Of a stretch of DNA of 64,000 nucleotides, positions 7,946 through 62,842 are shown one piece after another; position 1 is the stretch's first letter, and each line of letters opens with the position of its first letter. The translations under genes and the position numbers were made by a program. The notes beneath the pieces were generated by a model. It saw only the letters and a list, made by a program, of their open reading frames with translations. It searched no databases and was not told the origin of the DNA. Where the stretch lies: NCBI GenBank assembly GCA_006384855.1, contig VCJN01000091.1, positions 1-64,000 on the forward strand, in the 5' to 3' direction. This stretch comes from Tetraselmis striata. Its lineage: Eukaryota; Chlorophyta; Chlorodendrophyceae; Chlorodendrales; Chlorodendraceae.

Positions 7946-8365
7946 TTACATGTCGTTGGCAGACAGGGACGAAAATACGAAACGGGTGGGAAACGGGGCG
8001 GGTGTCACCACTCATGTCGAGATGCGCGACGGCGAGGTGCGCTTAACGCAGCGCACGGCGCGCTGATGAGAGATGCGAGCGAAGATGCGAGTCTGCGTAC
8101 CGTTGGAGTCGCTCCTAGGAGAGGGTCCAAAGGTGGCACACCTTGAGGCTGGGGGTCAGGCTGAGGCTCGCGGTGAGGCGAAGGCTGCGAATCTCCGGCC
8201 CCATGCCATGGCGGTCCGCTTTGATGTTGCCCACCGCTCGGTTGCAGGGGCCTCATGGGCTGGGTCGTGGGTATTGGCATGTGAGAATATCGAATAGTAC
8301 CTCGTACAATGTTGGCAAGAAGAGGAATGTGTAAAAGCTCAGTTTCACAGTACATTCGTACATTA

Positions 8366-16632: not shown

Positions 16633-19600
16633 ATGCAACCAGCAGCACGCACCTGTCTGCTCCTACCACTGCTGCTGCTGCTCGCAACAGCGCTGGCGCC
16701 AGCTGCGCCTCAAGCTGATGATTGGAACGCCACCCGCTTCGAGGCCGGCTCCGGGGGAGAAGGTGAGCGCTCGACAGCCTCCTGGGATAGTCTGGTGGTC
16801 GGCTATAGCAGTGGGGGACGAAAGGCAGGGCCTGACCTGCTGTGTTTACACGTCGTCGGACTGCAGGGCTGGACGCCGCCGCGGTGCTGGATGACGCCTT
16901 CGCTACGAAAGAGAGTGCCGTCCTGCGAATGAAGGCGCTCATGGAGGCGGCGTGGGCTAACCGCAGCGCCGCCGAGACGGACTGTGTCGCGCCGTCGGCG
17001 TGCGCCAAGCGCCTGGAGGAGCCCGCCTGCGACGTGCAGTTTGGCAGCAGTGTCGGCTGCCAGTGTAAAGGGCGTGCGGTTGACGACGCCGGCTACGTCG
17101 TGAAGGCGTCGTCGCTGGTGGGCACCTCTGGGACTGACGTCAAGGCTGTGGTGTGCGCGGCGAACCAGTTTCGGGCCGAGCTCCCCGAGCTGTACTATGA
17201 CCTCGTGAAGACCGGCGACACTAAGTGGATATACTACGGCACCGCCTCCGGCGCGCTGCTCAACTTTCCCGGCTTCCTGTGGCCGCGCGACCGGGATGGC
17301 TGTGACGCCACCTACGACCCGCGCCGTCGGCCGTGGATGATGTCAGCGGCCACAGGTAACGCACAGGTCCCGCTACTACTGCTGTTGTGATGTACTGCTG
17401 TTCTGCTATTGATATGATGGCACCAGGCTAGGGATATTTAGCCCGTTTTCAATGCCAGGCCCGAAGAATATGGTGTTCATCTTAGACACCAGCGGCAGCA
17501 TGAGGCAGAACAATCGCCTGGGCCGGCTCAAGGAAGCCTTTCGCGCAGCGAGCGCCTCCCTCACCCACACCGACTACGTGGGCGTCATCGAGTTCAACAC
17601 AGGGGCAAAGAACTACCAGGGAATGACGACGCTCGCGAAGGCGCTGCCCGGGTTCCGAGAGCGCCTGGTGTCCTGGGTGGATGCCTTCCAGGACGGCGGC
17701 AATACCAACTTCCAGGCCGCCTTTGCGTGAGTGCGCCCACCATTCCCGCGATGCCCCGGCGAGAGTTGCGATGCGGAGCAACTGTAAGATTGTGCAGCTA
17801 TCAGTTGTATGGATGTGTGCCGATGTCTGTATTTGGGTGCATAGGCGGTCTTGAATATAATGATCCAGGTAATCTGCACATGGCATCATGCACAACTGAA
17901 TGTGAGTATGTTATAGATTGCACCCTGAAAACGCACGAGAAAGCATTAACTATTGTTCCGCGCATGGCTTGACGATTGAGCAACACCACTGTATTGACAA
18001 TGCATGGCCATTGTGCATTTGATCACCCATCGATGTGGCCCATGTCTGCGCAGAGCTGCATTCCAGCTTGTCGACTCCTCAAAAACCAAAGGCTATCATG
18101 CAGGTTGCCACACCGCGTACGTATTTGTCACGGACGGCAAGGCGGAAAGCCCGGTGGCTATGATCCAGGAGCGCCAGCGTAGTGTCCCTGACGAGCACTT
18201 CTTCATCATTAGCCTTGGCTCCGGCACCGACCAGCAGCAGCTGCAGCAGCTGGCGTGCAGCGTGCGAGGCATCTACCACAACGTCCCAGATGGCTCATCC
18301 GACGAGGCGGACGTTGTTCTGCTGCAGGTGGTGACCCAGTCGGCCAGCCTGCCTTGCTCTCTACCCATGCTGCAGCTGTCTAGACATGCAGCCTGCTCTG
18401 CCAAATGTGCAATAATCTGTTGGTGGAGGGATTATTTCCTGGCTTCAGGCTGGTTACGCCTACCCCATCCTCATGAGTATGTGCCATGCGACATGTCGTG
18501 TTCACCGCAGGCCATGACTTCTTTCTACCGCTACTTTGCGCTCCACAAGTCGCTCAGCAAGGTGGAGGGTGTTGTTTGGAGCGAGCCCTACACCAGCATC
18601 CCCGACATCTGGGGGACACTCTCCACCGCCGCCTCCCCGGTGTACGACAAGTCCCGGGAGCCATGGCACATGTTGGGCGTCGCCGCCGCAGACAGCACAA
18701 TGTGTGATCTATACCAGAAGGCAAAGGCGCTGGCACCAGAGCCGGTGTGGCCAGCGTCCACTGTCAAGGGTTGCCAGTGTATGGATTCCTTCAAGTACAA
18801 GGTGAGGCACTAGCAGCAGCGAAATGAACTTCTCATGTAGTCTAAGATCTATAGGGTCAACAGACTCTTCAGCAAGTGCTATAGCTAGGTAGAAGGTGAC
18901 GACACCCAATTATGTGCAATGATTATGCCACTATTGATACCCATGTACAATTTCATCTGGCGGTGTTCAACTTGGACTGCTACTTCTATTTTCATCTCTC
19001 CCTGTAGCTCTCTCTATGTTGTTGTGCCATATAAGCCGAGGGGCTTTGTCAACCCCCCAGCCCTTCTCTTTTCCCTCACTGTTTGATTGCTCCACACTCG
19101 TGCAGGGCAAGAGGTACTCTTCCTGCACTATGGACGATTGCTCCGTGCCGTGGTGTGCCACAGAGCATTGTGGCAGGTGTGACACCGCTAGCGTGAGTAC
19201 TGGTTGCTGGGATGAGTGCACCCCGGCCGGCGCGGAGGCTGTGGTGGAGGGCCGCCTGCTGGAGCAGGGCGCATCATGGTGTGAACCTCTCCGGTTGGAC
19301 GACTGTGCGCTGGAAGTGCTGCGGGGCGAGGATAACTGTGGCGGCGACATTGCGGCTTCCTGCAGCCTTGAGCAGATGGATGCCTACCGCTGGGCTATCT
19401 ATGGAGAGGTGTCTTCCTCTTCCAGGTAGTGGTGGTCACCTCTACGGCCTGCAACTCCTGAATGAATCGCAGTGCTACGTCATACTTGCACTGATATTCG
19501 ATTTGCCAAGTGTTGTGCCTCTAATCCGTGCAAACCCACCCCAATCCCACTGATACCTTTGCAGCAATGCCCAGTGGGCCAAGCCTGGCTTTGAGGACAG

Positions 19601-22885: not shown

Positions 22886-25800
22886 ATGGGCAGCCCTCTA
22901 GTTCCCAAGCACCTGGAGGACCTGGCGCGCATCGCGAGGGGCGTGCTGCTGGTCGCTTCGCGCGCAGCCGCGGACAGGTGCGGCACTGGCTGGCGGAGGC
23001 GAGATGGGCTTGTGAGATGTGAAGCGTTTTGACCGGGCCGCTAGGGAGCATGTGGTTGTCTGGTCTGAGAGGGCAGATTATGCAGCTAGGAGCTGTGTGG
23101 CCACGGGAGGAATGCTGTACACGGAGCACTCAACTGAGTCTGCTGTGATGCTGTGCATCCGCAGCAATGCTGTTCAGCGCATGATGCTGCGCGACGCCGG
23201 CAAGGCCGCTGCAGGCGCGCGCATGGACGTGCAGGCGGCAATGAGCCCTGCGCAGCGCGGTGAGTGGCCCAGCTCCCAATGCCACGCCCAGCTGTGAGGC
23301 TCTTGCCGCCTGATGGGGGAAGTGTCGTTGGGTTGCAGACCGGTCCGGCCGCCTTGTGCCCTGACTTGTACTGCTGTCATCGTCATCATGTCATGCCATG
23401 CCGTCCAGCAGCAGCGCCCAGCAAGGCCGCCCAACCGCAGCACACCGCGCCCAGGAGCGAGGTGACGCCAGCCAGCTTGTACCCTGCCGCAGCCAGCCAA
23501 GCAGCGGCCACGCCTGAGCCGCCGCATGGACGGCCGGAGGCGCCCACCGCTGCACCCGCGGAGCCCAGCGTGCCGGCAGATGCGTCGCCGCTAGAGAAGG
23601 TGGCGCACCCAATGGCGGTGCCAAAGGTGGCAGAGGCTATGGGTACATCTGCGGCTGCCAGCCATGGTGAGTGCGTGGGGCACATGACCGTCGGCATGTG
23701 TGCTGGAGGGAGAGTCTCCCCTGTTGGGATGGGGCGCGGGGGCTCTACACAGATGCCCATGGGCTTGTGGGCAAAGGTGGGGAGGTCATGGCGGAGCAGC
23801 TGATAGACTAAGCGCTGCGGTCTGTCCACAGAGTCAGCTTCCAGCCAGGCTGAGCAGCCAGCTGCCGCTGCAGCAAAGGAGGAGACGGAGGCTACCCCGC
23901 CCAAGGCAGCTGCTGCCTCGGTTCAGAGAAAGCTGCGCGAGGTGCGGCCTCTCAACTGCCCGCCCAGCTCCTGCATGCAGGCTGGCATCATTGGTGCGCA
24001 GCATACGTACTGCCATGCTGAACTTTGCAACCGCCACATGCGCCAGGCGCGCGTACCCTCCAGCCCCATTGGCCGCGTCGTCGGCTTTGCGGGGCTGGGA
24101 GCCTCGCTGGCGCTGGGCGCCCTGCGCGACAACGCCTCCCTGTGGCTGTCCGGCGCGGGGGGCAAGAGCGCCGGGGGCGACAACAAAGTCAAGGGGAACC
24201 CGTGGCTGACGGAGCGCAACGCGGAGCGGCTGGCGGACGCGCTGTGCCGCATGAGGCAAGGCGCCCGCTCCCCAAAGCGCCGCAACCTGCTCTCCCAGGG
24301 CAGTGCCTGCAGTGTCTCTTTCCGCATGCCCATGCCAGTGGTGGTCCATGATCTAGAGTGGCCATGCGGCCGCATGGGCGGGGTGAGTGTTGGGCGAATG
24401 GCAGGCAGAGAGATTGCCTTCTGCACCCCCCTCATTGTCACGTTGTGTGCCACAGGGGTGCGGCGCTGAAGCTCGGCCAGATGCTGTCAATCCAGGATGA
24501 GAACGTGCTGCCGCCGCAGGTGCCTCTTTCAACCCCCCTCCCCCCCCTCTCCCCTTCCACACACACACACACACACACATTCACGCACGCATGCGTGCGC
24601 ACCTTCATCTTACTTCTTCCCACCAAGTAAGCTGCTAGCGCAGCTGAACACCGTGCTTTGGCTTCGTCCCACGCACATGATGATGCAGCTACTGGCGGCA
24701 CTGGAGCGTGTGCGGCAGGGGGCGGACGTCATGCCCGCATACCAGCTAGAGGTGCCCCCCCCCCCCCCCCCCCCCCCCTCCTCCCTTCTGCCTGTCAAGA
24801 GGAATGTGACGTCCATGTTGACGAGCCTGAGCTTGTCCCATCGTCGCGTCTCCATAATCTGCTGCTCAATTTATCGCCGTTGCTTAATCCTTCACCAGCT
24901 GAGCCACAGGCAACCTGTTTGCCGATGGGCATGTGCACTGACATGGAAGTGTACTCGTCGTGCGCACCTGACTGAACATCCTTGTCCCCTGCAACACTGC
25001 CCGCCTGCGCTCCATCAGGGGGTGCTTACCGAGCAGCTGGGGCCGGACTGGAAGCTCAAGGTGAAGGACTTTACCACAGAGCCAATTGCCGCCGCCTCCA
25101 TCGGCCAGGTTCGACCTCCCCAGTCCGCAACTATCTGTGCCATGCCCCCCCCCCCCCCCCCCCCCCCCTCCCCCCTCCCCTCTGTACCCCCCTGTCACCC
25201 GCATATTGGCAGCCCATTCAGCTGTGCAGGCGCTGAAGGGCGAACGCTGCAGGTCCACCGTGCCACGCTTCTGGACGGCCGCAGCGTGGCCATGAAAGTG
25301 CAGTACCCTGGCGTGGCCCGGTCCATCGAGAGCGACGTCGACAACGTGATGCGCCTCATCAGGGTACAGTGTTACCTGCCTCCCCATCCGGGGCGGACGC
25401 GCCCCAAACCCCCGTGCCCTCCAACGGCTTGTGCTTGACGCATGGCGGCATATTCCTCAGGGCCTTCGCGCCGTAACCTGGCTGACACTGGTCGCATGCG
25501 GCAGGTGGCAAACGTGCTGCCAAAGGGCGCCTATGTGGAGCAGGCAGTGGCGGTGGCGAAGAAGGAGCTGGCGCTGGAGTGTGATTACCGCAACGAGATG
25601 GACGCACAGGCGCGCTTCCGGCAGCTTATGCACAGTGCGCTCCCTGCCCTACATAGGCCCGCGTCACGGCCCGGCTGTTGCGCATTGCAGCGCTCTGCTT
25701 GGGAGTGTCAAACTCGCTTTCACTCAGCCACCATGCGCCCGCTTGCCCCCTGGCATTGTCTCCCCCAGGCGACCCAGACCTAGATGGCTTCTACGTGCCA

Positions 25801-50123: not shown

Positions 50124-52599
50124 GCGCGGCTGCTAGCACCTCTTCTGCAAGGGGTTGGCCCTCATCGCCTGCCTGCACCACTCCTCATTGCTGCAGGGCT
50201 GCTCCGCCATCATCTGCATGCCCACCAGCACGCCGCGCATCAAGGTGGACGCAGTGCAGGCCCTGGGTGGCACCGTGGAGCTCGTTGGGGAGAGCTACAA
50301 CGAGACGCAGGTGCCCCCCCCCCAAACCAGACACCCCCTCCCATCCTTGACCTGCCATCGCATCCCTCTTAACCAGACAGCCATCTCCAGGGAGCCCTGC
50401 CTGACTCGCAACCCTGCCTGGGCCAGACGTACGCCATGGCGCGAGCTGAGGCGGACGGGCGCGTCTTCGTCGCCCCCTACGACGACCCCTACACCATCGC
50501 GGGGCAGGGCACCATCGGTGCAGAGATTGCCTCGCAGGTGGGTGCAGCCGTGGGTGCATGGATGCGGTGCCCCTGCAGCTCCAGCGGATTCAGCAATGCC
50601 CTCTGTCTCCCGTCCCATCCCCCCCCCTTTGACCCCTCGCCCCCTCTGGGACCCCTTCTCTCGTGGCATTGGCTTCACCTTCCCTCCTAACTGCAGATAA
50701 AGAACCTGGACTCCCTGGACGCGGTGTTTGTGGCCATCGGCGGCGGCGGCCTGGTGGCGGGTGTGGCCGCTTTCTTGAAGGAGCTGAAGCCGTCCCTGAA
50801 GGTGATTGGCGTGGAGCCGACGGGCGCGAACGCAATGGCGCAGTCGCTGGCAGCCGGCCGCCGTGTGAACCTGTCCAAAGTGGACGCGTTTGCGGATGGC
50901 GTGGCGGTGAAGCAGGTGGGCATGGAGACGTTCCGCCTGTGCCGCGAGCTGGTGGACGGCGTCATCCTGGTGGACAATAGCGCCATCAGCGCTGCCATCA
51001 AGGACATGTTCAATGAGACACGCTCCATCCTGGAGCCCGCCGGGGCGGTCTCCCTCGCGGGCGCCAAGGCATGGCTCAAGCGCGAAGGCGTCAAGGTGCG
51101 GCTGCCGCTCAGCCACCTGTCAGCATCACACCTGCAACTACTCCTAGCACCACACATGCACCACCTCATGTGTCGACTTTGTTTATGTAGAAGTTGATGC
51201 TCTAATGATTTTTTTGTGTTTGCACTTGCCTGTGCAATCATCGCGCTATCACTCATTATTGTGTCTACTCCCTAATTTTGTCAATTTTTTCCGGTTTTGA
51301 CATGAGCTGGCATGGTGGCTGTGCCCGCGCTGGCCGGACCTTGAAGCGCCTGTCTGACTGTTTGCACCGCCACTTTGCCGCCCAATGGCCAGGACCACAC
51401 GGTGGTGGCCATCACCAGCGGCGCCAACATCAACTTTGACCGGCTGCGCCTGGTGTCGGAGCTGGCGGACATTGGCGCCAAGACGGAGATAATGCTGGCA
51501 TCTACCATCCCGGAGGAGCCGGGCAGCTTCCTGGAGTTTGTGGAGGTGGTGACAGAGAGCCACACCTCCACAGAGTTCACCGAGTTCAAGTACCGCTACT
51601 GTGCAACCAGCGCTGCGCGCATTCTGTATAGCGTCAGCGTCGGCAACGAGTTCAACATCCAGGTGATGCCACCACCTTGCCTGCAGCCCTGCCCATTGAC
51701 ATGAGGGACGCGTAGCTTTAAAACATAGAACAGTTCAATCCCAGGCCGTGCCTTTTCCCCACGTGTTCCCATAGCTCCAGTTACTTTGTTCTAACTGAGC
51801 TGGACTTCGCACCCGCAGGACCTCGTGGACCGACTGAATGACCACGACATGCCCACCACTGACTGCTCTGGCATGGACGCTGCGCTGGTGCACCTGCGCC
51901 ACATGGTTGGCGGCCGGTACGAGCCCCCCCCTCCCCCCCCCCCCCTTCCCCCCCCCGGGCTTCAGTTGTAGCAATGACGATGTGTAATCTGCAGCGGGTT
52001 GCCAGCCGGGCAGCTGATGATACCCCTTGATCCGCTCGCTCTCTACCTGGGCACGCAGGCCACGCTCCTTCACAGGCGCACTTCCGGACGAGCAGGTCTT
52101 CACAGTGGTCTTCCCCGAGCGTCCGGGCACACTCATGTACTTCCTGGGCATCTTCAAGGGAATCAACATCACGATGTTCCACTACCGCAAGTCAGGCAAC
52201 AACAAGACGGAGGTGCCCCCCCCCCCCCCCCCCCCCCCCCCTTCCCCTTGCAGGAGCGCTAGCATTTGCTATTGCTTTGGCTGCTATCAGGAACTGGTCC
52301 GCAGTTGCAGCTGAAAGAGGATGTTTATTTAGGATTCTGGTGAAAGCGCAAATGCTTTTAAGTGTCGTTGTAAGCATTGAAGTGTCAGGCGCTAGCTATG
52401 TAGCGCATTTGTCTGGTCCCTCTGAGCCTGCCTGCTCCCACCCCCTCTTCCCCCCTACCAGCTGCTGATGGGCATGCAGGTGTCAGAGGAGCAGCGCCCG
52501 GCGTTCGAGGGCCAGGTGGAGGAGGTGACCGCTGCTGGATTCGATCTGCAATTGCTGGACGACGAGACGCAGCGGGTGTTCGACATGTTCATCCGATAA
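48792..52599 (+). CDS. ilvA: Threonine dehydratase (biosynthetic), plastid, 661 aa
   Basis: Ten exons keep phase: 48792-49187, 49563-49652, 49752-49967, 50197-50310, 50427-50537, 50697-51095, 51393-51662, 51819-51916, 52059-52212 and 52462-52599. The enzyme uses pyridoxal phosphate to convert threonine to 2-oxobutanoate, the first committed step of isoleucine synthesis. The cofactor lysine sits in [10 protein letters not shown] (about K195). [11 protein letters not shown] and the phosphate-binding GGGGL (about 324-328) are intact. The C-terminal ~220 residues carry the two ACT-like regulatory domains ([15 protein letters not shown] is clear), where isoleucine normally acts. The first ~50 residues are Ala/Arg/Ser-rich, a plastid transit peptide, and ATGGCC is a good start. 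A cysteine cluster at about 124-138 lies before the catalytic fold. Introns hold poly(C) and (CT)n tracts. Confidence 0.97.
50067..50121. repeat. (CT)n microsatellite in a threonine dehydratase intron
   Basis: About 27 CT units, preceded in the same intron by a poly(C) run at 49987-50010. Confidence 0.97.
52213..52242 (+). repeat. Poly(C) run directly after a splice donor
   Basis: The intron starts GTGCCCCC and continues with about 25 C. The same gene shows GTGCCCCCC at the donor at 50311 and C runs just after the donor at 51917. Confidence 0.95.
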
Positions 52600-52801: not shown

Positions 52802-54324
52802 TCATGGCGGCAGGGAGGCTGCCCATTTGGCAATGGCATCGCTCGACTCTTGCGGCGCATCGTCCTGCGGGCAGTGTCCCGCCAGCACGGGCACGTAGAG
52901 CGCATCAGGGCGCAGGGCCATTATGAGCTCTGCCTTGGTGGGCGTCATCCAGGGATCCCGCTCGCCCCACAGCAGCATCACCGAGCCGCGAAACGCCTGC
53001 AGCTGCTCCGCGGGGCGCGACTGCGTGCGGCCACCTGCCAGCGAGATCTGGTAGAACGCCCCCAGCGCACCCTCGTCCTCCGCCGCCATATCGATGGACT
53101 TCACCAGCTCCTGGTCGACCTCAAACTCGTACACCTGCTGCAGGATCTGCTTGATGCGAACCTGCGGGGGCAGGATGGGGCAGGGCTCTGAGGGTGAGAA
53201 ATGAGCTACGAGTTCCTTGACAGGTAGTTGGTCTCCTGGCAGAGCCTTATAACGGCGCATCGAATGGCGGTGGCTAAACTAACTGGACATCGCGGGAGTA
53301 GCCACAGACCTTGGTGAAGTAGAAGATGGCACCTGCGGAGAAGCGGCCAAACGCCTCCGCCAGGCGCTCCCGCAGCGTGGGATCCACGCTCTCGTCCTCC
53401 CGCCGCGAGCCCGCCACCGCCTGCTGCGCCAACGTCTTGCGCTCCGGCCCAGGGGCCGCGTCGGGCTGAAAGTTTCCGGCGGAATTGACGAGGCAAAGGC
53501 CGCGGAAGCGGTCGTTTCCCTCCGAAGCCGCGTACAGCGCCGCGAGCGCGCCGATGGAGTTGCCGGCGATGACGGCCCTGTCAGAGATCGACGCGCCCGC
53601 AACCTCTGCTGCAAAGTCCATCACTATGCCGGCGGCAAAGTGGCAAAAAATGCATTGATTAGCCGAGATACACACATTTATACATATACATGATTTAGAG
53701 AATAATATAACACTTAGCTCACTTAGCTTGGACAGGATTGCAGGTAGTTACAAGTAGTGATCATTTGAGTGCTTGTGGGTCGGCGCCCCCACCCTGCTGG
53801 CCCCACAGCTCCATGGAGAACTCGGCCTCCACCTTGGGCGACCAGCCGTAGCCCAGCATGCAAAGCGCATAAACCCGGAAGCCCTTGCGCGCCAGCGCTG
53901 GGATGGTGTACCGCCAGTGGTAGGAGTGCGCGCCGAAGCCGTGCACCAGCACCACGATAGGCCCGGTGTTAGCCTCGCCGGCGGCGATGTAATTGCAGGC
54001 GTGCCCGCGCCACTCCCAGCGGCGCCAGCCCTCGGCCTGCAGCGTGACGCGCTCCCGGCCCTGGGCGTCCAGCTCGCACTCAGGCAGGCCGAGCTCCGCC
54101 TCGGACAGCGGCTCGAACGATGTAGCGGAGGCACGTGGGCGAACCGCGCCGTCGCGAGGGGCCATGTGAGCGAGGCGCGGCGAGTGAGGTGGGATCCTGG
54201 ACACACCGCAGTCAAAGAGGGCTGGAGGCAGCGGTCCTAGCACTTGCCAACTGGGCTGGGCGCGCTTCGGAGCACCCGTTGCTACCGCCAGCGTGACAAC
54301 CCCTTTCAGCAACGTACGATTCAT
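52802..54324 (-). CDS. Plastid-type alpha/beta hydrolase, about 401 aa
   Basis: Three exons: 54324-53793, 53623-53310 and 53161-52802. The fold is clear: an oxyanion-hole HGFGAHSYHWR (about 128-138), the nucleophile elbow GNSIGAL with Ser200, the acid in LWGERDPWMTP (about D351) and the base in LAGHCPQDDAP (about H378). GNSIG and GHCPxDxAP are typical of plant chloroplast hydrolases related to pheophytinase. The substrate is unknown; a chlorophyll-derivative esterase is one possibility. The first ~60 residues look like a plastid transit peptide; a start at 54165 (MAPRDGA) is possible. Exon 2 could instead end slightly further on, at a second in-phase donor near 53289. The 3' end converges on threonine dehydratase. 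Confidence 0.9.
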
Positions 54325-56489: not shown

Positions 56490-59244
56490 CTACTGCCGGT
56501 CCAGCCCCGCGAACCGGTGCTGATCTGCCTTGGCTTCCACAGACGCAAGGCGCACGTACTCTGGCATGAACACATCCCGCTTGCTGATGCGCTTGCCAGT
56601 GTAGGGGTCCAACAGGACCTGCGCGTACTCAAAGTCCCGGATCCAGGTGTCTATCCGCCGCCCGTCCAGGTCCGACTTCTCAAGCAGCGCGTGCACCACG
56701 CCACCGCTGTCCGGCACCTCGTTCTCGGGCCGCTGTGAACCACACGTAGCCAGGCTCAGACCACAATGCTTTCACATGCAATATGACATTTCAATGGAAT
56801 GCCGGAGGGTAGGGCTGCTACAGTGCAGGAGGGAGGGGGGGGGGGGGGGGGCTTCAGATGTTGCGTTGCGCACATCTTGGCATGCACGCGAGTTGCGTTG
56901 ATGGGTGTGTTGGGCCACCCTGGGTGCAGAAGCATTGACACTCGGCGAGGGATCAAAGGTATGCGCACCTTGATGCTGAGCACTACCGCGCCAGGGGACG
57001 ATAGGGACAGCCGGATCATGAAGGTTCCTGGCTTGTGGTGCGTGAGGGCGCGCACAGCCTCCGCACGCCCCACATCGAAGCCTGCAACAATGGTTGGGTC
57101 GGACTGCACCCCACAGCATGCCTGAATCTCAGCACTGATTACCGGATGTAATCAAGACAAGGATGGGAGAAAGAGCAGAGGAAGACAGCAAGTGGCAGGG
57201 GGACTCACGTGGTTCCAGGTGGTGCGGATGCGTATGAGGAGGTTGATCATCGCCGAGTACCAGTTCTGGAAGGTTTTCCACTGTTCCATGCTGATTTGCA
57301 TGCCCAGCCGGCGAGCCTGTCGGTGGCAGCGGCCAAGAGCAACAGCGTGTAGGCTCAGGCCCCTGGCACAGGCTCAGGCTGCGTCCCCCCCGCCACCCCC
57401 CCCCCCCCCCCCCCCCCCGCCCTGCATCCCCTCTGCTTCGCTTACTTGCCAGTAGGACACAGATAGGAACGCACCTCAAAGGTGTCAGGGAAACCTGCTT
57501 GCACCTCCAGAATGCGCATGTCCATCTCCGTGAGCGGACGTGTCAGACCTACCCAGCAGCCACATTGGTCAGTGGGCTCAGACAAACCCCGCTTGCGTGC
57601 CATCAACCATGAGCTCATTAACCAGCAGCTCACCCCAGCTGCCGGCACTCAGCTGGGGGAAGACAACTCGCTGTGCCTACTGCTATCAATACAACATTAC
57701 CAAGACCGCTGCAACTCTTACGGCAGGCAAGGAGGCCGCTGGCGGGGGGGGGGGGGGGGGGGGGGGGGGGATAAACACAAGGTAGTTGTTTCACACCTGC
57801 TGTCTCGTATTTTGTGATTGCATACTCCCGCACGGCCTCAATGGAGTAGAAGACTGGCTCTGGCTGCTGCATGCCCTGGTTGGCCAACGGGGATTGGCGC
57901 TCCATATTGACACCGCCAGCGGCGTTAAACATGCCCCCCATGTCAAACGTGCCGCCGGCCATGCCCCACTGTTGCTGGCCAGGGTAGGCACTGGCATCCG
58001 CAGCAGCACTCATCCCCGGGAAGTGGCCGCCCTGCATAGCGCGCTCCTGCTGGCCGATGGCGGTGGGGTGGCTGATCGCTGGCGAGGATGGTGGGTAGTT
58101 GCCACCCATGGCAGGAGAAAAGTCGTCGTCATATTCATTCCTCGGCCGGACGCCACCCTGCGCCTCCTGGCCGAGCGGGTCCACGTCTGCATCAAGTACT
58201 CCACCGCTACTGGAGGGCGCCTTCTCGACATGGCCTTGCAGCGACTCGAGCGCGCGCACACCCTGGTTTGTAATGTGTGCGATGACAATAGTGGGCACAT
58301 GGTACACCGCGTACAGCAGATCGCGGTCCAGCACGTTGACGCTGAACAGCATGTACACCTTCTTCATGCGGCTGGGCTTGATGATCTTCAGATCGCAGAA
58401 CTCAAATTCATGCGTCATGTACTTGAATTGCGCCACGCCACCACCGGCACCCGCGCCACTCGCCTGGCGCCGCATCTGCCGCGCGCCGCTGTAGTCGGGC
58501 GCGCCCATCGCCATCCCCTGCTGCCCTTCGCCAAGCATACCCACAGGGTCCAGGAACTCCTCCCCAAAGCCCATCTCCAGACTGGTAAAGGGCGAGGATT
58601 CCATCACGGGCGCTTCCGGCATCATGCTGCGCGAGTCGTTCGCATCGCTTCCTGTTCTCACGTAGCCAGACATTGTCACCTTTTGTAGCGAGCTCTGCCG
58701 AATGACTTCGGGCGTGCGGTTCATTGCATCGACCTGGTCCACAGTGTCATCAAAGACGTGCGAGATGGAAGTGGTGCCAGTCAGCCAGGACTCGGCGTCC
58801 TCGTTGGTCTCTGCCCAGTTGGGCAGGTCCGATCGGTCGTTTTCTGTCAGCACATGTGCCTTGACGGTGCACACAAAGGACACCCCGCTTGTTGAGCGGT
58901 ATGACACCCCCACCTTGACCTGCCGGGAAGAGTGCAGAGCAGGAGGCAGGGGGGGGGGGGGGGGGGGGAGGGGGTTAGCACAAGCACTGGTCCCCGGACT
59001 GTCATTTATAATGGTATCCGAGGTAGTAAAATCCTGCAAGCTATCAGAGCTGCTAAGCCTTAAAAAGGACCTACATTTAAGTGAGCACAGCTGCGAGTGA
59101 AGCCTGGATCATGTGAGATTATGAACGCACTGGATCCCTATACGCATTTGCACCTAGGGTAGCACAATTTCAACACTCCCCCCCCCTTCCACGCCCACTT
59201 TCCCTGAAGGGCACGATCGCACGCACACGATCGCACACACACGA

Positions 59245-59324
<80 letters not shown>

Positions 59325-59711
59325 TGCAGCACATAACAGGGAAAGCCTACAGGTCGCACCCACCTTGAAGTTTGGACGGATGGTTTTCTTGACCTTGAGT
59401 GGCAGGGAAAATATGCCCGGCGCTTGGGTGACGCGCACGGTCACACGCTCGGGAGCGCGAGCGCGCGCCATCGGGGATAGAGTACGCATGAGGGCAGGGC
59501 CCCCGCCTGGCTCTTGCCGCGCTCCTCCTACATCTGAGTTTGCCTGTTTTTCGCTCTTGACCCACTGCCACCCCTCACGGCTCGCAACATTGCGTGTGAC
59601 GTTGCCATACCGCACCCACTGTGTCTGCTTGTGGTCCACGTCTGGCTCAAACTCTGGCACCTTGGGGAAGCTCTGGATGCCCAGAAACTTGTCCTCCTTC
59701 TCCTCCGCCAT
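56490..59711 (-). CDS. STAT-like protein with linker and SH2 domain, 682 aa
   Basis: Six exons keep phase: 59711-59364, 58919-57797, 57548-57475, 57316-57209, 57121-56969 and 56732-56490. The C-terminal SH2 domain is clear: GRAEAVRALTHHKPGTFMIR continuing LSLSSPGAVVLSIK (about 565-602), with the phosphotyrosine-binding Arg in FMIRLS. Before it lies a STAT-type linker (LTEMDMRILEV, then EQWKTFQNWYSAMINLLIRI and TTW). Further upstream a beta-rich region ends in HVPTIVIAHITNQ (about 323-335), resembling the end of the STAT DNA-binding domain. Between them is a ~150-residue Gly/Met/Pro/Gln-rich insert. No N-terminal STAT helical bundle is seen. The tail has one tyrosine in FMPEYVRLAS, a candidate phosphorylation site. 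STAT proteins carry phosphotyrosine signals into the nucleus. Plants have short linker-SH2 relatives, so this may be one of those with added domains. Confidence 0.85.
59231..59322. repeat. (CA)n microsatellite in intron 1 of the STAT-like gene
   Basis: About 37 CA units, preceded by three ACGATCGCACAC-type units. Poly(G) runs at 57747-57770, 58949-58967 and 56832-56850, and a poly(C) run at 57398-57418, lie in other introns of this gene. Confidence 0.97.
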
Positions 59712-61180: not shown

Positions 61181-62806
61181 TCATGAAGGAGGCACTGGGA
61201 AGGCCACCGCTGCGGAGTCCTGTTGGACTTGGAAGTGGCGGAGGGGGGCGATGTGTCCAAAGAAGAACCACGCGCCAGGAGAAGGAAGAACGTTGGGGTC
61301 GATGTAGTCCAGAACGACATCGGAGTTAGTAGCCCAGCCGCCTTGGTAGCGGATGTGGGACAGTGGCGCTCCGATGGCATTTGCTGCAGAGGCTGCGCCC
61401 TTGCGTAGACTGTGTGAAGTCCAGGAAGTGCCAGCAGGAGGGGCAGCGTTGACTAGGTTGACCGCTGTAGACAACCAGTCTGACATCGTAGCCGCAGTCC
61501 AAGGTTTTGACTGCTCAGCCACATTGACAGCCCAGAAGTTGGAGGCAGCCAAGCCAACAGTAACCAGGGGGACAGACTGGACGTTGTCGATGAAGTAGCG
61601 CAAGAGTCGTGCCACTCGAGGGTGCTCGGACACTGGAAGGAGAAGTACGCGCAGGTCGTCGGGTCCCCGACGGCCAGCGCGACCCTTCTCGCGGTAGATC
61701 TGCAAGGTGATGTTGTAGGTGTCGACATGCACATCTTGCACTCGACAGGAGACGCCAGTAAGGCCCCTGGCAAAGAACATGAAGTTGACAACCGAGGCCA
61801 AGAGGGCTCGGTAGTCGAGGTGGGACTCTGGGTAAGGAGCAGACACAATTAGCTCGGCCTTTGAGACGAAGCGGTAAGCTACATCCGCAGGCAGAGGGAC
61901 ACGCAAAGGGGCAGCGTCCAGTCGGCGCTGCCGCAACATTAACCCACGCCTTGCCGAAGTGAGGTGTAGGCTGTCCTTGGCGATCGGGACGAGGTTGTGC
62001 AGCTCGAAGAAGGTGTTGATGGCAGACAGGTAGGGCTGCAGCGATTTAGCTGCGATGTGTCCTCGCTCCCCGATCCAGGCAACGTACCGGACAACAGTAG
62101 CAGTAGTCGCTTCCAGCGGGCTGATGTTCTCGGAGTCGTGGCAGAACTCAGCGAACTGAGACAGTCTGCCGGCGTAGCTCTTGAGGGTCTGCGCGCTGAG
62201 GGAGCTGGAGAGCAGGTCCAGCGTCCGCTGCCCTAGCTCGTCTGAGCCGAACGCGTCCTGCAGCCGAGATCGCAGTGACGCAGCCCATGGAGCGATAGCT
62301 GCGGGCTCGTCGATTACGTAAGTGCGTCGTTTTACTGACAGAGTTCCACCGGTACGGCTACTGTTCGCAAAGTACTCGGCAGCAGCGGTTAGGTTCCCGG
62401 TGGTTGGCCGGTAGTTGCTGGACGGGTTTGCAGTAGCTCCAGTACGGGTTTGCGGGGCTAGGTTCAGGTAAGAGGGCCGCCCCGCGCGCCCTTCGCGCTC
62501 GTAGCGTCTGTCCCGTGCGTAACGTACACGCGCGAAACTTGGTCGTTGCGAACCGGTTGTAACACGTAGTGTAACAACCGACGAACGCAGAGATGGGGTT
62601 GTAAGAAAGGCGGATGGTTGAGCCGCCATGTGCAGGTGTGCGGATGGTTGAGCCGCACTCGGCTGTAGCTGTGAGAAGCGCCGCACCGAGGAAGGTCTAA
62701 ATGAAGTCTGTAAGGTGGGGGGGTCAGGTCCTGACACAGGGCGCTCATCCCGCCGTTGAGCTGCAAGGGTGCGTCTTGCGGCGGTCACCGAAAGGTGACC
62801 TCGCAA
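61181..62806 (-). CDS. Tyrosine recombinase (phage-integrase family), 541 aa
   Basis: This is a single uninterrupted exon. An Arg/Ser/Thr-rich leader (1-190) precedes a SAM-like core-binding domain (about 195-290, with TLKSYAGRLSQFAEFC and YLSAINTFFELH). The catalytic domain follows. All active-site positions are present: R347 in FFARGLTGVS, K374 in YREKGRAG, H465 and R468 in SHSLRKGAAS, W491 in QGGWATNSD, and Y501 in LDYIDPN as the nucleophile. Such enzymes cut and rejoin DNA through a 3'-phosphotyrosine intermediate and insert circular DNA. In DIRS-like elements the enzyme integrates the circular cDNA. It follows the gag-like ORF by 36 bases. The start is approximate because the leader is poorly conserved. 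Confidence 0.94.
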   Translation of the reverse strand: MRGHLSVTAARRTLAAQRRDERPVSGPDPPTLQTSFRPSSVRRFSQLQPSAAQPSAHLHMAAQPSAFLTTPSLRSSVVTLRVTTGSQRPSFARVRYARDRRYEREGRAGRPSYLNLAPQTRTGATANPSSNYRPTTGNLTAAAEYFANSSRTGGTLSVKRRTYVIDEPAAIAPWAASLRSRLQDAFGSDELGQRTLDLLSSSLSAQTLKSYAGRLSQFAEFCHDSENISPLEATTATVVRYVAWIGERGHIAAKSLQPYLSAINTFFELHNLVPIAKDSLHLTSARRGLMLRQRRLDAAPLRVPLPADVAYRFVSKAELIVSAPYPESHLDYRALLASVVNFMFFARGLTGVSCRVQDVHVDTYNITLQIYREKGRAGRRGPDDLRVLLLPVSEHPRVARLLRYFIDNVQSVPLVTVGLAASNFWAVNVAEQSKPWTAATMSDWLSTAVNLVNAAPPAGTSWTSHSLRKGAASAANAIGAPLSHIRYQGGWATNSDVVLDYIDPNVLPSPGAWFFFGHIAPLRHFQVQQDSAAVAFPVPPS

Positions 62807-62842
62807 GGCTCCTGCAGCTCCGACGAGCGGCGCCCCACGCCG

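Follow-up and report, generated by a model that had tools for sequence, protein, structure and literature searches.

Accounts of signalling from phosphotyrosine to the nucleus usually deal with animals and slime moulds. For the Amoebozoa, a 2014 paper describes a coiled coil in the STATs of Acanthamoeba and slime moulds, and places all 17 further lower-eukaryote relatives in that group (PMC4206453). Dictyostelium mutants lacking normal function of the TKL proteins Pyk3 or Phg2 have reduced phospho-STATc, in a paper that, by its own account, has yet to demonstrate the exact target of Pyk3 (PMC3934975). Plants have proteins of this kind as well. A tomato study gives SlSTAT a CDS of 2112 bp (~703 aa) in 12 exons, a location in nucleus and cytoplasm, and cold and germination phenotypes, and counts two STAT-like members in Arabidopsis (PMC11989334). 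This size makes doubtful a statement in the preliminary description of the present locus, namely that plants have short linker-SH2 relatives. The plant transcription-factor databases PlantTFDB/PlnTFDB hold STAT among their DNA-binding families, as mentioned in PMC4827209, and word searches did not find STAT in factor surveys of Marchantia (PMC3880041) and red algae (PMC12567131). No report of a chlorophyte STAT was found in the literature searched, the coverage of which was thin for subscription journals, so that one may exist. The linker-SH2 arrangement was reportedly treated in a 2004 paper by Gao, and the plant STAT-like proteins go by the names SHA and SHB.

A STAT-like gene was analysed in the first 64,000 nt of contig VCJN01000091.1 of Tetraselmis striata (GCA_006384855.1), a stretch referred to below as the window. 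The gene consists of six exons on the minus strand, as had been described before, and runs from nt 59,711 to 56,490; in our own splice model its open frame codes for 676 aa and not for the 682 aa given earlier. All five introns (444, 248, 158, 105 and 236 nt) are of the GT-AG type, and the GC content by codon position is 0.63/0.45/0.75. A TAA is the fifth codon ahead of the ATG, and a TGTAA, the polyadenylation signal in many green algae, is found 115 nt downstream of the stop codon. The features of the gene, and the last exon of a paralog on contig C1413, are as follows.

56490..59711, minus strand: whole STAT-like coding span, 6 exons, 676 aa (splicing, open frame, TAA upstream, TGTAA downstream)
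59364..59711, minus strand: exon 1, an N-terminal stretch of 85 aa and the opening strands of the beta-rich region, residues 1-116 (splicing, spliced alignment)
57797..58919, minus strand: exon 2, remaining beta-rich, DNA-binding-like region, insert and start of the linker, residues 117-490 (splicing, block common to the paralog)
58260..58412, minus strand: segment of residues 286-336 (HEFEFCDLKIIK...VPTIVIAHITNQG), similar to the final strands of the DNA-binding domain in STATa (shuffle test against STATa)
57475..57548, minus strand: exon 3, linker (splicing, linker homology)
57209..57316, minus strand: exon 4, linker helices, EQWKTFQNWY...TTWNH (splicing, linker alignments)
56969..57103, minus strand: exon 5, transition from linker to SH2 and N-terminal half of the SH2 domain, with Arg582 at 57013-57011 (splicing, PF00017 at 27.5 bits)
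56490..56732, minus strand: exon 6, C-terminal half of the SH2 domain, PEYVRL (Tyr655, 56558-56556), a short tail and the stop codon (splicing, alignments)
C1413 (locus L010) 8021-8260, plus strand: last exon of the paralog with GTSYLN, the tyrosine of which lies 16 residues after that of FYRL (STAT alignment)

On balance, we lean towards reading the product as a green-algal STAT-like protein. Its beta-rich domain, which probably binds DNA, is followed by a low-complexity insert and then by a linker and an SH2 domain, both of STAT type. The insert (residues ~346-470) is rich in Gly, Ala, Pro and Gln, spans ~120 residues of exon 2 and separates the beta-rich region from the linker.

The SH2 domain was recognised directly. 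PF00017 matched residues 562-599 of the protein with 26.3 bits (cut-off 21, E = 8.1e-6) and exon 5 alone with 27.5 bits, and the phosphate-binding Arg582 is intact within the GTFMIR of the domain, which bears out the preliminary description on both points. The HMM search proposed there as a check thus placed SH2 above its cut-off, but in a Pfam scan of the protein up to E 10 SH2 stood alone, and the STAT models, STAT_linker included, returned no match. When the protein was used as a single-sequence query against the PDB, the SH2 proteins SHP2 and GRB2 were returned at E = 0.013 and worse, and Dictyostelium STATa at E = 0.12, aligned over residues 485-592, which include the linker.

Outside the window, a search of the alga's own genome (224 Mb, 2903 contigs) with the window protein returned a single further locus, on C1413. 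SH2 is matched there at E = 3.8e-5, and residues 275-312 are weakly matched (E = 0.105) at a point ~3 kb upstream and in the same orientation. The reverse search with this paralog found only C1413 and C67. Its strongest match in the window (58257-58433, 38% over 58 residues, E = 1.7e-6) falls in the DNA-binding-like region, and its SH2 matches there are weaker (E = 0.011 and 0.56). By spliced alignment the parts of the paralog (beta region, linker, SH2) are arranged as in the window protein, with 32% identity over the aligned core and an SH2 match of its own (30.6 bits), and the two have the N-terminal block of exon 1 in common. This gene model was guided by the window protein, and its insert region and N-terminus, being uncertain, were left out of the profile core. 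One intron position (after RPNFK/RPHFK) is common to both genes, and the four other introns of the window gene have no counterpart in the paralog model. This suggests an old duplication. An SH2 family search of the genome returned only exon 5 of the window gene and missed the paralog, and among viral contigs and prokaryote genome contigs no relative was confirmed.

Searched against the PDB, a joint profile of both algal proteins returned Dictyostelium STATa first (1uur, E = 1.9e-9), in an alignment running from the last part of the DNA-binding domain across the linker into the beginning of SH2, followed by SHP2 (E = 5.7e-6), which matched in SH2 only. Profile-profile alignment (hhalign) with five STAT sequences extended from the linker to the end of SH2 (96.9%, E = 1.6e-10, a value for a single comparison with no database and a STAT set that includes the STATa fragment). 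For the linker alone, the profile scored 20.6 against a maximum of 19.2 in 300 column shuffles. Compared with single STATs, the real score was reached by none of 3000 shuffles for STATa, by 75 for STAT5B and by 94 for STAT5A (both of 3000), while for STAT6 (524/3000) and STAT1 (1630/3000) it was not significant; this linker-only test may carry a bias from the choice of fragment, as does the STATa segment test described below. Because the linker-only scores beat the shuffles, with 0/3000 for STATa, the linker is, by sequence, of STAT type and, of the five STATs compared, closest to the amoebozoan one. Adding STATa to the profile made a further PDB search (STAT5B, E = 9.3e-10) circular, and its result is excluded as evidence; the Pfam STAT_linker model, run exon-wise over the genome, gave no matches either to the alga or to controls and is uninformative. 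The STAT-type linker of the preliminary description has gained profile comparisons and shuffles in its favour without a Pfam match, and the assignment as a STAT-type linker-SH2 protein is well supported.

The beta-rich region is where the readings part. One alternative holds that the protein is a linker-SH2 adaptor and no transcription factor, the beta-rich region being some other protein-interaction domain and the likeness to STATs ending at the linker. It draws on the fact that, taken alone, the region matches no family and no PDB entry significantly (the best, Renilla luciferase, reached E = 0.45) and that by hhalign only linker and SH2 align; the region itself scored 14.7 against the STAT set, and 200 column shuffles reached 23.0. 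Against it, segment 286-336, which also holds the paralog's strongest match to the window, matches in register the STATa strands just before the linker, with a two-sequence profile score that none of 5000 shuffles reached, although this figure is somewhat flattered, the STATa fragment having been picked after the profile had aligned there. With single sequences, the STATa score was reached by 9 of 2000 shuffles for the window protein and by 82 of 2000 for the paralog, and comparisons of the segment with STAT1 (797/5000), STAT5A (306/5000) and STAT6 (655/5000) were not significant. We consider the adaptor rather unlikely, though it is the strongest of the competing explanations. Position and the one segment matching STATa are suggestive of a STAT DNA-binding domain in the window protein, which is as yet unproved.

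Two earlier observations on this region can now be qualified. The STAT-like VPTIVIAHITNQ with which it was said to end is present (residues 324-335) but is by itself not significant: a short STAT strand model scored -5.6 bits at VPTIVIAHITNQ, did not report the paralog, and reported 648 of 2000 shuffled proteins with scores of up to 9.6. Being no better than chance, the motif alone was discarded as a demonstration of DNA binding. The DNA-binding-like part as a whole has the STATa segment in its favour and lacks a Pfam or PDB match. A structure prediction had also been proposed; the model computed, with no alignment, for the 229 aa of the beta-rich stretch of exon 2 shows strands, but with a mean pLDDT of 38.7, a pTM of 0.31 and no residue at or above a pLDDT of 70 it is unusable.

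A second alternative is that of a classical self-activating STAT, in which the phosphorylated PEYVRL of one subunit would sit in the SH2 domain of the other. It takes its appeal from the single tyrosine after the SH2 core, and Y655 is indeed the only one there, as stated in the preliminary description, with the protein ending 21 residues later. By hhalign and the STAT alignment, however, PEYV aligns with the KYY that closes the STAT SH2 domain (KDHAFGKYYSRP in STAT1), and Y655 falls on its second Y, 20 residues ahead of the tyrosine in GTGYIKTE of STAT1 (Y701, the activation tyrosine). The paralog has F in the Y655 column, followed by Y, and 16 residues past that Y is the tyrosine of its GTSYLN, which aligns with GTGYIKTE at the activation-tyrosine position. 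PEYVRL as an activation site was rejected on this alignment, and self-activation is quite improbable. The window copy seems, from these alignments, to lack the usual activating tyrosine; since GTSYLN aligns with GTGYIKTE and the window protein has no tail tyrosine, the paralog would be the one of the two copies that is activated as STATs are, if either is.

Other STAT characters are divided. The SH2 domain with its Arg is present and the linker lies directly before it, while the tail tyrosine is missing, and so is the coiled coil that STATs have ahead of their DNA-binding domain: no more than 85 residues lie N-terminal to the beta region, and an in-frame stop stands shortly before the ATG. The absence of a coiled coil is judged by length in the gene model, which may lack upstream exons. 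In the strict sense, then, the window protein lacks two defining features of a STAT, the coiled coil and the tail tyrosine; that it works like one is plausible.

We also considered whether the DNA might come from a contaminant, amoebozoan or other protist, in the algal assembly. The top PDB match is a Dictyostelium protein, although land-plant and algal STAT-like sequences were absent from that comparison, and runs of 12 or more G or C are common in the window and occur at the paralog locus, but were seen at only two of six light-harvesting loci and two of five kinase loci. GC contents are close (window 0.586, paralog locus 0.578, six light-harvesting loci 0.533-0.572), and the STAT-like gene occurs on two contigs, C67 and C1413. 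The genome has at least 63 matches to the chlorophyll a/b-binding family, in support of the green-algal origin proposed in the preliminary description, and one light-harvesting protein matched in the PDB, after two long chains of 9vfj, 7d0j_S (443 bits), 6kac_N (442 bits) and 3jcu_G (402 bits). The first two of these three structures are from Chlamydomonas and the third from spinach. From the light-harvesting matches and the similar GC of the loci, an origin of the DNA in a green alga appears well supported, and contamination very improbable. A decayed copy is hardly tenable, as the tail tyrosine kept in the paralog is absent but the frame is complete, the splice sites are canonical, the codon-position composition is coding-like and the binding Arg is kept.

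At least 153 matches to the kinase family PF07714 were found in the genome (137 of 741 candidates scored). Five kinase regions were read, and a catalytic loop was recognised in four of them: HRDLKAAN in two, HRDIKLAN and HRDLKLEN in one each. The HRDLKAAN loops look TKL-like; none of the four has the classical tyrosine-kinase form, HRDLAARN or HRDLRAAN. An exon-wise genome search for the classical Y_phosphatase family (PF00102) gave no matches, by which absence is not proved. Kinase and light-harvesting hits were often paired on different contigs with identical scores (e.g., C1502/C1686, C869/C1127, C48/C2047), which would fit an assembly that holds both haplotypes or recent duplicates; each STAT-like gene, unlike these, was found once.

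Under the favoured reading of a green-algal STAT-like protein, tyrosine-kinase-like enzymes (TKL or dual-specificity) would, in the manner of Dictyostelium, write the phosphotyrosine that the SH2 pocket (Arg582) reads, and the protein would carry this signal to the nucleus. Because the window copy has no tail tyrosine, it would most likely not form a reciprocal homodimer and may dock on the phosphotyrosine of another protein, plausibly that of the paralog's GTSYLN at the STAT activation-tyrosine position. A wider version, which we regard as unlikely, is that a full STAT core of DNA-binding domain, linker and SH2 predates the split of plants from amoebae and animals and ran on TKL-type kinases in the absence of classical tyrosine kinases, the alga having an unequal pair of a paralog with a tail tyrosine and a receive-only partner. 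A green-algal STAT-type protein with a likely DNA-binding part would put the module near the root of the eukaryotes, before dedicated tyrosine kinases.

The remainder of the window carries several recognisable frames. Just upstream of the STAT-like gene, a 553-aa frame (nt 61,181–62,842, minus strand) has a phage-integrase SAM-like domain above cut-off (PF02899, 33.1 bits) and a weak integrase match below it, and is probably, from these domains, a tyrosine-recombinase mobile element. A region ~5 kb from the STAT-like gene (nt 50,691–51,701, plus strand), in which a PLP enzyme domain precedes the regulatory domain of threonine dehydratase, probably marks a biosynthetic threonine deaminase gene. 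An ABC1 atypical kinase domain (nt 24,470–25,438, plus strand; PF03109, E = 9.5e-17) is covered in frame for only part of its profile, and matches below cut-off were seen to alpha/beta-hydrolases in two adjoining frames (nt 52,805–53,747, minus strand; weak) and to von Willebrand A (nt 17,998–18,813, plus strand; weak). The window has 23 runs of 12 or more G or C, including some in the introns of the STAT-like gene and in spacers (e.g., 57390-57420, 57745-57770 and 59240-59320), and eight CA/TG repeats of at least eight units, in the introns of that gene and in spacers. Rfam and tRNA scans of the window were empty.

Compared with described proteins, Dictyostelium STATa (1uur) is the best PDB match of the two-sequence profile, and is collinear with the algal protein from the last part of its DNA-binding domain through linker and SH2. 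In amoebozoan STATs a coiled coil comes ahead of that domain (PMC4206453), where the window protein has only 85 residues. The ~120-residue low-complexity insert is likewise unlike Dictyostelium STATa and the amoebozoan STATs. Animal STAT1, STAT5 and STAT6 align with the algal protein from the linker to the end of SH2 and share the G-T-F-x-x-R core of SH2 with the window protein, whereas similarity in the beta region is not significant. The N-domain and coiled coil of the animal STAT layout are absent from the window protein, and so is the tail tyrosine of animal STATs. SHP2, GRB2 and other non-STAT SH2 proteins align over the first half of SH2; their profile match is restricted to SH2 and scores below STATa, but SHP2 and GRB2 outscore STATa when the window sequence alone is the query (E = 0.013 vs. 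0.12). Algae would offer a single-cell system for STAT function without JAKs, a coiled coil or, in the window copy, an activation tyrosine. The plant STAT-like proteins of Arabidopsis and tomato resemble the algal protein in size, in belonging to the green lineage and in low copy number, and the best reading places the algal protein in the plant-type STAT-like family, by lineage and size and not by sequence comparison. The window protein is a green-algal instance of a known, neglected kind, STAT-like proteins having already been reported in Arabidopsis and tomato.
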